From Acrocarpospora corrugata (lineage in GTDB: Bacteria > Actinomycetota > Actinomycetes > Streptosporangiales > Streptosporangiaceae): 64,000 nucleotides of DNA. Both the position numbers and the translations under genes were made by a program. The stretch is taken from NCBI RefSeq assembly GCF_009687845.1, contig NZ_BLAD01000037.1, positions 227,416 through 291,415 on the forward strand, given 5' to 3'. Shown here in pieces: positions 55,722 through 60,448 of this stretch (position 1 is its first letter; each line of letters begins with the position of its first letter). Below the pieces are notes generated by a model, which saw only the letters and a program-made list of their open reading frames with translations, was not told the DNA's origin and did no database searches.

Positions 55722-57476
55722 TCACAGGTCGAGCCAGTAACCGCTCGGGGCGGTTTGCCAGAGATGCCAGAGGGCGCCGTCGTCGCCGCGTACGAAGATT
55801 TCCAGGCGGCCGTCCTGGTTGGCGGCGATGACCGGGCCTTCGGACACGCGCGGACCGGGGATGCTGAACCAGCTGCCCCAGCCGTTGTTGGGGGCCGTCT
55901 GCTCGATGATCGAGATCTGGTCGCCGGCGTTGCGGGCGCATACGGTGAGGCGGCCGTCCTTGTTGCGGGCGACGGCGGGTTGGATCGCGTGACCGCCGCG
56001 AGTGCCCCACCCGCTCCAGCTTCCGTCGGGTTTCTGCCAGATGTGGTGCAGGGATTTGTCGGGCCCGGTCCCGAAGACCTCCAGGCGACCATCGGCGTTG
56101 GTGCCGACCACGGGATTGATGATCTTTCCGCCAAGGGATTTCCAGGGATGCCAGCCGGGGCCGCTCGGATTCTGGGACAGCAGGTGGAGGGCGCCGTCGG
56201 TCCCGACCGCGAACACCTGGAGCCAGCCGGCCTTGTCCAGGGCAACCGTGATGGGCGGGCGGATCGTCCCCGCGTTGAGGGGTTCCCACGTGCCCCAGCC
56301 ATTGCTGGGTTTGGTCTGGGCGACGTGGATGAGTGCCCCGCCGGGCGTACAGGCGAATACGTGCTGGCGGCCGCCGGGGGTGCGGATCGTGGTCGGAGAG
56401 TGGATGTTTCCGCCCAGGGTGCCCCAATGGCTCCAGCCGTTGTTGGGGCGGGTCTGCCAGATCGCGGCCAGGGAGTTGTCGCCGGTGACGGCGAACAGCT
56501 CCAGCCGGCCGTCCTGGTTGCGGCCGACGGCGAGCTGGCGGAGGACGTTCGCGCCGAGGGATCCCCACGCGCTCCAGACACTGTTGGGGGCGACCTGCCA
56601 GATCTGGTGGACTTCGCTGTCCATGCCGACGCCGAAGACCTCCAGCCGGCCGTCCAGATTGGCGCCGACCGTCGGCTCGTAAATCTCACCGCCGAGCGAG
56701 CGCCACGGCCAGCCGTACCGGGGTCCGTAGATCACCTGGGCGCCTTGGACGTCGTCGCGGGTCAGTTCCGCGGTGTCGTTGAGGGTGGCGTACATGACGG
56801 CTCGGGGATCGTCGGAGTGCCCCAAGCCGATGGCGTGTCCGAATTCATGGAGAGCGACACGGTTCAGCCTGTTTGAGGGCCATGAATCGTCCGGGTCGTA
56901 CCTGCTGGTGACGGGTTTACCGCTGTCGGTTGGATACTGGGTACGTGCCAGAGCTTTGCCAGGACCATCCCATTTGAACCATGAGATCTGGATGAGGCCA
57001 TCTTTCGGGATCTCGGTGAAGTCCAGTGGAATGACCGCCTGCCACCGATCGAAGGCGCCACGGAAAGCCAGGCGCTGCGCTTCTTCGCTGATCTTGGGGT
57101 TGAATTCGACGATGTTGTAGGTGATGTCATGGTGCTGCCACCCGGGAGGCTGCACGCTGTACCGAGCCGCTCTGGCCGCACCGACATCGGGGTTGCCGCA
57201 GCGAGGCCGGGCCATGAGGGCCAGGGTGGGCCCATCCACCTGTCCGGTGACGGGTAATCCCATCGCCTGCTGGTACTTGGTGACCGCGCTGGCCATCGTG
57301 TCGTCGTATCGGCTCGGGTTCGCCGGCGCGATGGGCACGGCCGCCCTGAACCCAGGGTATTGGGCCTGGATCTCAGCGTTGGGGAAGTACCCGTACTGCC
57401 TCAGGAACCCATACAAGGCCTGAACATCCGACCCTTGATCACCTTTTCTCAACATCTTTCCAGGAATTGCCGCCAT
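55722..57476 (-). CDS. Matrixin-like metalloprotease with cysteine switch and PLL-type propeller
   Basis: 584 residues. Residues 1-90 are a peptidoglycan-binding-like helical prodomain (VQALYGFLRQYGYFPNAEIQ, YQQAMGLPVTGQVDGPTLAL). PRCGNPDV (91-98) is the matrixin cysteine-switch motif that blocks the zinc in the zymogen. The catalytic domain follows (FDRWQAVIPLDFTEI, then HEFGHAIGLGH at 210-220, with Met 228 as the Met-turn). From about 240 there are seven repeats of about 50 residues (NLDGRLEVFGVGMDS, NADGRLEVFGTGPDKS, NQDGRLEIFVRGDDG), a seven-bladed propeller like the PLL family of lectins. There is no N-terminal signal peptide although family members are exported. Start ATG 57476 follows AAAGG. 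Confidence 0.88.
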   Translation of the reverse strand: MAAIPGKMLRKGDQGSDVQALYGFLRQYGYFPNAEIQAQYPGFRAAVPIAPANPSRYDDTMASAVTKYQQAMGLPVTGQVDGPTLALMARPRCGNPDVGAARAARYSVQPPGWQHHDITYNIVEFNPKISEEAQRLAFRGAFDRWQAVIPLDFTEIPKDGLIQISWFKWDGPGKALARTQYPTDSGKPVTSRYDPDDSWPSNRLNRVALHEFGHAIGLGHSDDPRAVMYATLNDTAELTRDDVQGAQVIYGPRYGWPWRSLGGEIYEPTVGANLDGRLEVFGVGMDSEVHQIWQVAPNSVWSAWGSLGANVLRQLAVGRNQDGRLELFAVTGDNSLAAIWQTRPNNGWSHWGTLGGNIHSPTTIRTPGGRQHVFACTPGGALIHVAQTKPSNGWGTWEPLNAGTIRPPITVALDKAGWLQVFAVGTDGALHLLSQNPSGPGWHPWKSLGGKIINPVVGTNADGRLEVFGTGPDKSLHHIWQKPDGSWSGWGTRGGHAIQPAVARNKDGRLTVCARNAGDQISIIEQTAPNNGWGSWFSIPGPRVSEGPVIAANQDGRLEIFVRGDDGALWHLWQTAPSGYWLDL

Positions 57477-58879: not shown

Positions 58880-60229
58880 TTATGTGGAGGCGGTCAATTC
58901 GGTCAGGAGCCTGGCGAAGTTGGCCGGGAGGGCATGGATTTCGGCGGGGGAGAAACGGGTCACCCGGCCGGTGAAAGCGAGTTCGTATTCGTCGCCGCGG
59001 GGGGTGGCGGTCATCGCCAGGTCGAGGGTGGCGTCGTCGACCTCGTGGTCCCAGACCTGGGCGGTCAGGCCGTCCCAGTCGGCGGGGGGCTTGGGGTCCT
59101 CGCGGTGCACGAAGGACGCCTGGAAGACCGGGTGCACACCGGGGATGCGGGCGATCCCGGCCCGGGAGACGAGGGTGTCGAAGGGGATCTCGTTCGCCAG
59201 GGCGCCGGCGGCGGCCTCGCGGACGCGGGTGACCAGGGCGGGGAAGCTCTGCCCTGCCGGTTGCGCGACCCGGAGCGGGATCATGTTGACGAATGTGCCG
59301 ACCACGGATTCGAGTTCGCGGCGGGTGCGGGAGGCGGACACGATGCCCACGGTGACGTCGCGGTGGCCGGTCATCCGCTGGAGCAGCACCACGTAGGCCG
59401 CGCACAGGGCGACGAACGGCGTGGTCGGCCCGCCGGCGACGCGGCGCAGGCGGTTGACGGCCTCCCGGTCGACCCTGACCATGGCGGTGGCTCCCGCGCG
59501 GGCGGCGGTCTCGGGCGGCTTGCCGCCGAACAGCGGCGGCGGCAGCGCGCGCAGGCGTTCGGTCCAGTACGGCAGGCGTTCCGGCAGCCGCCGGGCGCTG
59601 CGCTCGGCCGACCAGGCCGCGTAGTCGGCGTACTGCACGGCGGGCACGGCGGGCTGCGCGCCGGAGTAGAGCGCGGCGAGATCATCGGCCATGATCGCGA
59701 GCGAGCCGCCGTCGGCGGCGATGTGATGGCAGACCAGGAACAGCCGGTGCTCATCGGCGGAGATCCGGTAGAGGGTCAGCCGCAGCAGCGGCCCCGACGT
59801 CACCGGGAACCGCTCCGCGCTGGCCGCCCTGGCCATGGTGAGCGCGGCCGGCTCGCGCTCCCCGGCGGGCAGCCCGCTCAGGTCGACGAACTCGAACGGC
59901 GCGGGCAGGCCGGGCCGCACGCTCTGGTACGGCTCGCCGTCCGCCAGCGTGTAGATCGTGTGCAGCGCCTCGTGCCGGGCGACCAGCGCCGTGAAAGTCC
60001 CCGCCAGCCGGGCCAGGTCGAGCGGCCCGGTGAGGCGCACGCCGAGCGTGACGTTGGGCGCGGCGGTCGGGTCGGACTGCTGGGCGAGCCAGATTCGGCG
60101 CTGTTCGTGGGAGCACGCGAGCGGCGAGCCGTCCCGTGGGAGAGGGGTCACGCCCTGCGGAGCGGCTTTCCGGGCGAGCAGCTTGGCAACCAGTTCGCGT
60201 CGGCGATCGGCCTGCTCGGGCAGGGGCAT
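58880..60229 (-). CDS. Stand-alone NRPS condensation-domain protein
   Basis: 449 residues from ATG 60229 with GGAG six bases upstream. It is a full condensation domain: C1-like PLACSHEQRRIWLAQQSDPT, C2-like VARHEALHTIY, C3 active site FLVCHHIAADGGS (intact HHxxxDG at about 168), C4-like ADYAAWS, C5-like VTVGIVSASRTRRELESVVG and FVNMIPLRV. The N-terminal segment (MPLPEQADRRRELVAKLLAR) looks like a short docking region. It transcribes away from the synthetase at 60537 but shares the divergent promoter. It may supply in trans the condensation function that the synthetase's first C domain has lost, or catalyse release or transfer. Confidence 0.88.
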   Translation of the reverse strand: MPLPEQADRRRELVAKLLARKAAPQGVTPLPRDGSPLACSHEQRRIWLAQQSDPTAAPNVTLGVRLTGPLDLARLAGTFTALVARHEALHTIYTLADGEPYQSVRPGLPAPFEFVDLSGLPAGEREPAALTMARAASAERFPVTSGPLLRLTLYRISADEHRLFLVCHHIAADGGSLAIMADDLAALYSGAQPAVPAVQYADYAAWSAERSARRLPERLPYWTERLRALPPPLFGGKPPETAARAGATAMVRVDREAVNRLRRVAGGPTTPFVALCAAYVVLLQRMTGHRDVTVGIVSASRTRRELESVVGTFVNMIPLRVAQPAGQSFPALVTRVREAAAGALANEIPFDTLVSRAGIARIPGVHPVFQASFVHREDPKPPADWDGLTAQVWDHEVDDATLDLAMTATPRGDEYELAFTGRVTRFSPAEIHALPANFARLLTELTAST

Positions 60230-60268
60230 CCTGGGCTCCGCTCTGATTCCGGGTACGGCAGAGAGGCT

Positions 60269-60282
60269 TGGGAGCGCTCCCA
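60269..60282. promoter_or_regulatory. CebR-type operator TGGGAGCGCTCCCA
   Basis: A perfect 14-bp palindrome (16 bp with the outer T and A, 60268-60283), identical to the known CebR (cellobiose repressor) binding site of Streptomyces. It lies 40 bases upstream of the condensation gene and overlaps its probable transcription start. Confidence 0.7.
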
Positions 60283-60286
60283 AATC

Positions 60287-60317
60287 AGCATAGAAGAAGC
60301 GGCCCGGGGCGCGTCAA
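60287..60317 (-). promoter_or_regulatory. Candidate promoter of the stand-alone condensation gene
   Basis: On the minus strand TTGACG (60317-60312) is followed after 19 bases by TATGCT (60292-60287). The operator at 60269-60282 begins five bases downstream, so a bound LacI-family repressor would cover the start site. Confidence 0.45.
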
Positions 60318-60396
60318 CCCCCAATTCGGTGCGAACTAAATATTCGCAGTTGAAGGCCGTATTTTCGGTGAAATTTTCTGAAATATGGATGATCTA

Positions 60397-60425
60397 TTGA
60401 CGCCACCACACGGTAATTCTAGCCT
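60397..60425 (+). promoter_or_regulatory. Candidate promoter of the NRPS gene
   Basis: TTGACG (60397-60402), 17 bases, TAGCCT (60420-60425). The operator at 60435-60448 would lie across the transcription start. Confidence 0.45.
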
Positions 60426-60434
60426 CAGAAAGCG

Positions 60435-60448
60435 TGGGAGCGTTCCCA
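60435..60448. promoter_or_regulatory. CebR-like operator TGGGAGCGTTCCCA
   Basis: A near-perfect palindrome, one base different from the site at 60269 and centred 166 bases from it. It is in the leader or start region of the NRPS gene. Confidence 0.65.

Follow-up and report, generated by a model that had tools for sequence, protein, structure and literature searches.

Thaxtomin biosynthesis in Streptomyces scabies (also S. scabiei) is described in PMC5332605 as an NRPS pathway under the control of the cellulose repressor CebR. In that account, the boxes of the thaxtomin genes lie upstream of txtR/txtA and inside txtB and have their mismatches at the outer base; the paper describes binding at these imperfect boxes as weaker than at perfect cellulase boxes, the form that most cellulase boxes take. 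Thaxtomin is the only cluster reported in PMC8914351 to be under direct CebR control in S. scabiei and, for Thermobifida fusca, PMC3377646 gives single box changes as possibly reducing affinity. In the CelR/CebR regulon of Thermobifida and Streptomyces (PMC3377646, PMC4898821), a 14-bp box stands at cellulase genes and at a cellobiose ABC transporter-bglC-regulator locus; the targets given in the available parts of these reports are glycosyl hydrolases, transporters and regulators, and NRPS targets are not named there. A further described system is the nrps-3 cluster of Herbidospora, with the domain order A(Gly)-T-C-T-C-A(Gly)-T and then C-A(Asp)-T-TE and a predicted product Gly-?-Gly-Asp (PMC4599437); the text of that paper mentions neither cellulose regulation nor a fused MFS domain.

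The locus analysed here lies near the right end of a 64,000-nucleotide stretch of Acrocarpospora corrugata DNA (the window). Like thaxtomin, it is an NRPS pathway whose cluster contains cellulose-repressor boxes; unlike in thaxtomin, both boxes stand at predicted start sites, the mismatch lies beside the central CG, and five or more NRPS loci are wired to the box. As in the Thermobifida and Streptomyces regulon, the same 14-bp box is found at cellulases and at a transporter-bglC-regulator locus. The window NRPS genes are orthologous to Herbidospora nrps-3 in the same domain order, whereas the promoter there is without a box. The gating of an NRPS by a cellulose repressor is known from thaxtomin; as far as the literature searched shows, the suite of loci, the operator form and its spread are new. 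In one open-access library we found no published account of cellulose-repressor wiring at a suite of NRPS loci, nor of a fused NRPS-TE-MFS protein.

The divergent promoter and its conservation

The features of the locus, from left to right, are the following.

58880..60229, minus strand: stand-alone NRPS condensation-domain protein, 449 aa (PF00668, E 3.4e-66), the leftward target
60269..60282, no strand assigned: operator 1, predicted, the perfect CebR/CelR box TGGGAGCGCTCCCA, kept in 5/5 Acrocarpospora genomes
60287..60317, minus strand: predicted leftward promoter, with -35 TTGACG (60317-60312), 19 bp, -10 TATGCT (60292-60287), 4 bp, then the box
60376..60395, no strand assigned: conserved block TTCTGAAATATGGATGATCT, 20 bp, just upstream of the rightward -35, in 5/5 Acrocarpospora sequences with one variable base
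60397..60425, plus strand: predicted rightward promoter, with -35 TTGACG (60397-60402), 17 bp, -10 TAGCCT (60420-60425), 9 bp, then the box
60435..60448, plus strand: operator 2, predicted, the one-mismatch box TGGGAGCGTTCCCA, 9 bp past the -10 and 88 bp ahead of the NRPS start codon
60537..64000, continuing beyond the window end, plus strand: NRPS1, 2148 aa, A-T-C-T-C-A-T (whole gene, L016:2953-9399)
L016:9396-14735, just past the window end: NRPS2, 1779 aa, C-A-T-TE-MFS, a single open frame after NRPS1

The original prediction had read two palindromes in this divergent promoter as CebR-type operators controlling both sides of an NRPS locus. Both palindromes are present, the first being identical to the CebR/CelR box, as had been said, and the second departing from it at 1 position, so that the promoter carries the 14-bp palindrome on one side and its one-mismatch form on the other. 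Both flanking genes are of NRPS type, a stand-alone condensation domain to the left and a synthetase beginning A-T-C to the right. The placing of each box across a transcription start stands as a prediction only, made from -35/-10 pairs that end 9 bp (rightward) and 4 bp (leftward) before the boxes. The block at 60376-60395 is a possible site of an additional regulator or a promoter element. A cluster-bound activator of the TxtR type (AraC/XylS) was not seen among the subset of cluster-neighbouring genes scanned. To the left of the cluster, at 55722-57476 of the window, lies a gene for a matrixin-type metallopeptidase with peptidoglycan-binding and FG-GAP matches.

The arrangement is conserved in the genus. 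The pair of boxes, at a spacing of 166 bp, is present in all four other Acrocarpospora genomes, those of A. pleiomorpha, A. macrocephala, A. phusangensis and A. catenulata (5/5 with the window genome), where orthologues of the condensation-domain protein (78-87% identity) occupy the same place. An alignment of the five promoters shows that the rightward -35 and -10 and both boxes are kept and that much of the spacer is variable; for the leftward promoter, the -35 is found in 5/5 aligned sequences and the -10 in 3/5. Box 2 reads TGGGAGCGTTCCCA in the window genome and TGGGAACGCTCCCA in the four orthologues; the two forms differ from one another at two bases, and each is one mismatch from perfect.

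Boxes at cellulase genes and a CelR-like repressor

A scan of the whole genome, as the original prediction had proposed, placed the box at five NRPS loci as well as at cellulases. At a limit of one mismatch there are 29 places, 16 exact and 13 with one mismatch, against 2 for the same pattern read backward; at two mismatches the signal nears the background (93 against 55 for the reversed control, genome-wide). The neighbours of the boxes include two GH9, two GH5, a GH6 and a GH12 gene, genes for CBM2 proteins, and a family-5 solute-binding protein accompanied by a LacI gene of its own; a few neighbours are not obviously connected with cellulose (a methyltransferase, PhoX, a sulfatase and a HATPase). 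Contig C37 ends within the GH48 gene. Three relatives have a box in the interval that separates GH48 from a NUDIX gene; in the window genome the NUDIX gene that opens contig C35 carries such a box, which, given this arrangement in the relatives, is presumably the GH48 promoter box.

On contig C51 there is a locus resembling cebEFG-bglC, in which a solute-binding protein gene, preceded by two boxes, is accompanied by two genes in the permease position (labelled by position) and by genes for a GH1 enzyme and a LacI repressor. The box set thus takes in cellulases together with cello-oligosaccharide uptake genes. The genome does encode a CebR-like protein, on whose existence the original prediction depended: the C51 repressor has a LacI fold, a CelR recognition helix and a position beside the cebEFG-bglC-like genes. 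Its best solved relative is PDB 5ysz (E 3.6e-123), with recognition helix and hinge identical in the alignment. We take this structure to be T. fusca CelR, which is supported by the 57% identity of the C51 protein to a construct annotated MalR-CelR. Among 23 helices compared, out of 41 LacI-type matches, the helix GVGRGTVSRVINGS occurs only in this protein. No named equivalog lies above its cut-off: the 18 NCBIfam matches at E 1e-10 or better are all below their cut-offs, and no CebR or CelR model is among those 18.

A one-mismatch box also lies inside the coding sequence of the repressor itself (C51:90857), as it does in two relatives. Beside the repressor, at L025:6068-12322 on the same contig, is a box-led operon with a carrier protein, a glycosyltransferase, dehydrogenase E1/E2 subunits and a GH1 enzyme.

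NRPS loci with a variant box, within and beyond the genus

The inference of a second, unrelated peptide pathway is supported and can be extended in two respects: there is not one pathway but a family of NRPS loci, and the boxes at NRPS genes have a form of their own, with one mismatch. Five NRPS loci of the window genome have the box, in every case as the variant TGGGAGCGTTCCCA, oriented towards the NRPS.

Locus A, C37:287.7 kb: the window cluster
Locus B, C37:159 kb: NRPS locus with TGGGAGCGTTCCCA
Locus C, C50:155 kb: NRPS locus with TGGGAGCGTTCCCA
Locus D, C37:312.9 kb: immediately downstream of GH48
Locus E, C69:91 kb: immediately downstream of a GH5 gene

The variant is enriched at these genes, TGGGAGCGTTCCCA standing at NRPS loci in 5/5 cases and the other 24 places including three at NRPS or carrier-protein genes (Fisher p 5e-4). 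Loci A, B and C encode related C-A-T-TE synthetases with a fused MFS (58-67% identity over synthetase-TE, up to 78% over the MFS), and the genes of D and E are pairwise paralogues (40-57% identity). A sixth site lies within the C51 locus, where the window genome has only a carrier protein after the box; in four relatives the orthologous sites have an NRPS after it, and the one traced comprises a 1726-aa NRPS, a carrier protein and a glycosyltransferase. The link between box and NRPS is not a general one, since about nine NRPS places of the window genome, out of some 14 places holding 49 condensation-domain matches, are without the box. The TE-MFS part of NRPS2 has matches in 110/250 genomes of the family. 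That all TE-MFS synthetases are controlled by the box was rejected, because a locus at C51:132692 has none at one mismatch or fewer in 11.5 kb; the same rule fails at a Herbidospora TE-MFS locus, likewise without a box at that limit, and at three Micromonospora loci, which have none at two mismatches or fewer. Contig C50 also encodes an odd 704-aa protein (L065:12231-14345) with a glycosyltransferase, the C-terminal part only of an adenylation domain and a carrier domain, which could be genuine or an assembly error.

For the four relatives, the surroundings of all listed box places with C or T at position 9 were taken (71 loci). Across the five Acrocarpospora genomes, the first gene is an NRPS at 22/25 variant boxes; at two of the remaining ones a glycosyltransferase comes first (followed by an NRPS in one case and cut by the contig end in the other), and at one neither is found. 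For perfect boxes the count is 14/84, taking an NRPS or carrier-protein gene as the first gene on one side. The p value of this contrast, 9e-11, is an overstatement, since the rows are orthologous and thus not independent. A fixed orientation of the variant box was considered as a rule; it holds for all five loci of the window genome, but in the four relatives the box of the cluster orthologous to that of the window has the opposite orientation, as have the boxes at L143 and L301, and the rule was dropped.

The same association is seen on the scale of the family, where 202 of 250 genomes have a perfect box and 92 a variant box. In samples of one locus per genome, which were unmatched by genus, the nearest gene is an NRPS at 21/30 variant and 1/29 perfect loci (Fisher p 6e-8), a thirtieth perfect locus, L001, being one already covered; the 21 variant loci span three genera, with 5, 13 and 3 genomes. 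Outside Acrocarpospora, a variant box stands at 16 NRPS loci, and at 14 of these a perfect one lies 176-200 bp from it. Forty further variant sites adjoin an NRPS in 10/20 cases where no TE-MFS match was listed nearby, in 10/10 of those chosen for a nearby TE-MFS match and in 1/10 of those drawn from the remainder. Variant boxes do stand at non-NRPS genes, in 9/30 of the one-per-genome sample, 10/20 and 9/10 of the further sets, and 1/25 within the genus.

Divergent promoters with a perfect and a variant box and with NRPS1-like genes (57-59%) occur in two other genera. In one of these genera (L304) the opposite gene is an orthologue of the window condensation-domain gene (58%), and in the other (L297, L298, L300) it encodes a carrier protein. 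In Herbidospora (including H. mongoliensis), orthologues of the condensation-domain protein are 69-70% identical, and the orthologous cluster has no box at three mismatches or fewer in two genomes and none at one or fewer in four; perfect boxes are found there before two other NRPS genes.

Proposed control, its alternatives and the products

A strong -35/-10 pair ending 3-11 bp before the variant box was found in 16 of the 25 tested and in 9 of 10000 shuffled upstreams, with a promoter-strength threshold set after a first look at the promoters. In cluster D (5 boxes) the best -10 lies within the box, and cluster B has no strong promoter adjoining the variant box (4 boxes examined). A -10 falling within the box, taken as the sole cause of the variant form, would account for cluster D, but 16 boxes have a separate -10 and speak against it. 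The position of the variant box downstream of a strong -10 suggests repression by blocked initiation, as a repressor bound there would cover the start site.

Taking these data together, we regard it as probable that the cellulose-utilisation repressor CebR/CelR, of the LacI family, uses both palindromes as operators, and that they serve repression in both directions. When cello-oligosaccharides are lacking, the repressor would sit on the first transcribed bases, just past both -10s, and initiation would be blocked both ways, towards the stand-alone condensation-domain gene on the left and towards NRPS1-NRPS2 on the right. Cellobiose or a relative, produced by the co-regulated cellulases and imported through the CebEFG-like transporter, would free the repressor, and the peptide pathway would come on together with the cellulases. 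Cello-oligosaccharides are the presumed inducer because of the regulator, transporter and cellulase context. As an interpretation of the DNA, the LacI/CebR-type control originally proposed for the locus is thus supported by the repressor, the genome-wide boxes and their conservation.

Whether CebR would be the protein that reads the NRPS boxes is the first point on which a different view may be taken. A second CelR-like protein is encoded on contig C59 (L031:6468-8992), followed by a Ser/Thr kinase gene; it has a perfect box just upstream of its start, 5ysz is its best solved relative (E 5.6e-69), and over the 269-aa part compared it is 99-100% identical in the four other Acrocarpospora genomes. 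If this or another LacI protein read the NRPS sites, the boxes would be real operators answering to another sugar or forming a second layer of control, and the distinct NRPS box form is what a second reader would require; we consider this unlikely, since the C59 recognition helix, SPATASRVLTG, departs from the CelR helix, GRGTVSRVING, which the bglC-adjacent LacI keeps, and since perfect and variant boxes, one base apart, stand side by side in the same promoters.

It is likewise improbable that CebR binds the boxes merely to fine-tune genes chiefly controlled by another regulator. The conserved block upstream of the rightward -35 and the Herbidospora cluster, retained without boxes, would be in keeping with such a role, and most cellobiose-responsive clusters of S. 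scabiei are given in PMC8914351 as outside direct CebR control; against it, the box lies at a predicted start, is kept amid a variable promoter in five genomes and recurs at independent NRPS loci. Chance palindromes in GC-rich DNA, considered first because the window alone is weak evidence (a chance mean of 0.67 matches with at most two mismatches, and at least two matches in 12/100 shuffles), have next to no probability left after the genome-wide counts and the near-zero controls in 250 family genomes, and are refuted by the conservation of the 166-bp pair.

Under direct CebR/CelR control, the one-mismatch operator on the NRPS side, the usual form at the NRPS promoters of the regulon, would probably be bound more weakly and require a lower level of inducer; by analogy with S. 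scabies and T. fusca, NRPS boxes would then release earlier than the perfect cellulase boxes. With less than even confidence, we extend this to several genera, in which a set of NRPS loci may stand in the cellulose regulon under an operator form of its own, TGGGAGCGTTCCCA, held by selection exactly one base off perfect; with this weaker operator, traces of cello-oligosaccharide would bring on the peptides before the cellulases. If so, the early peptides could, for example, guard the sugars later released by the cellulases or fetch a metal that the cellulases need.

Under laboratory conditions most NRPS clusters stay silent, for want of a known trigger. Here, because the same wiring recurs at clusters in related bacteria, cellulose breakdown probably turns on a set of peptides. 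If this is true, several uncharacterised peptide pathways of Acrocarpospora and its relatives would be induced together by one cheap sugar (cellobiose or cellotriose) or by deleting one repressor gene, and the cellulose repressor's direct hold on peptide biosynthesis would be a wider trait of cellulose-degrading actinomycetes and not a peculiarity of a plant pathogen. The boxes would also form a natural graded series of operators with which to ask how a single repressor sets different thresholds.

As to the product of the window cluster, the adenylation motifs, read with the Stachelhaus code, are Gly-like, Gly-like and Asp-like and agree with the prediction for nrps-3. In-frame TTA codons, of which six other genes checked have none, occur in the TE-MFS synthetases, with one in NRPS2, two in that of cluster B and three in that of cluster C.
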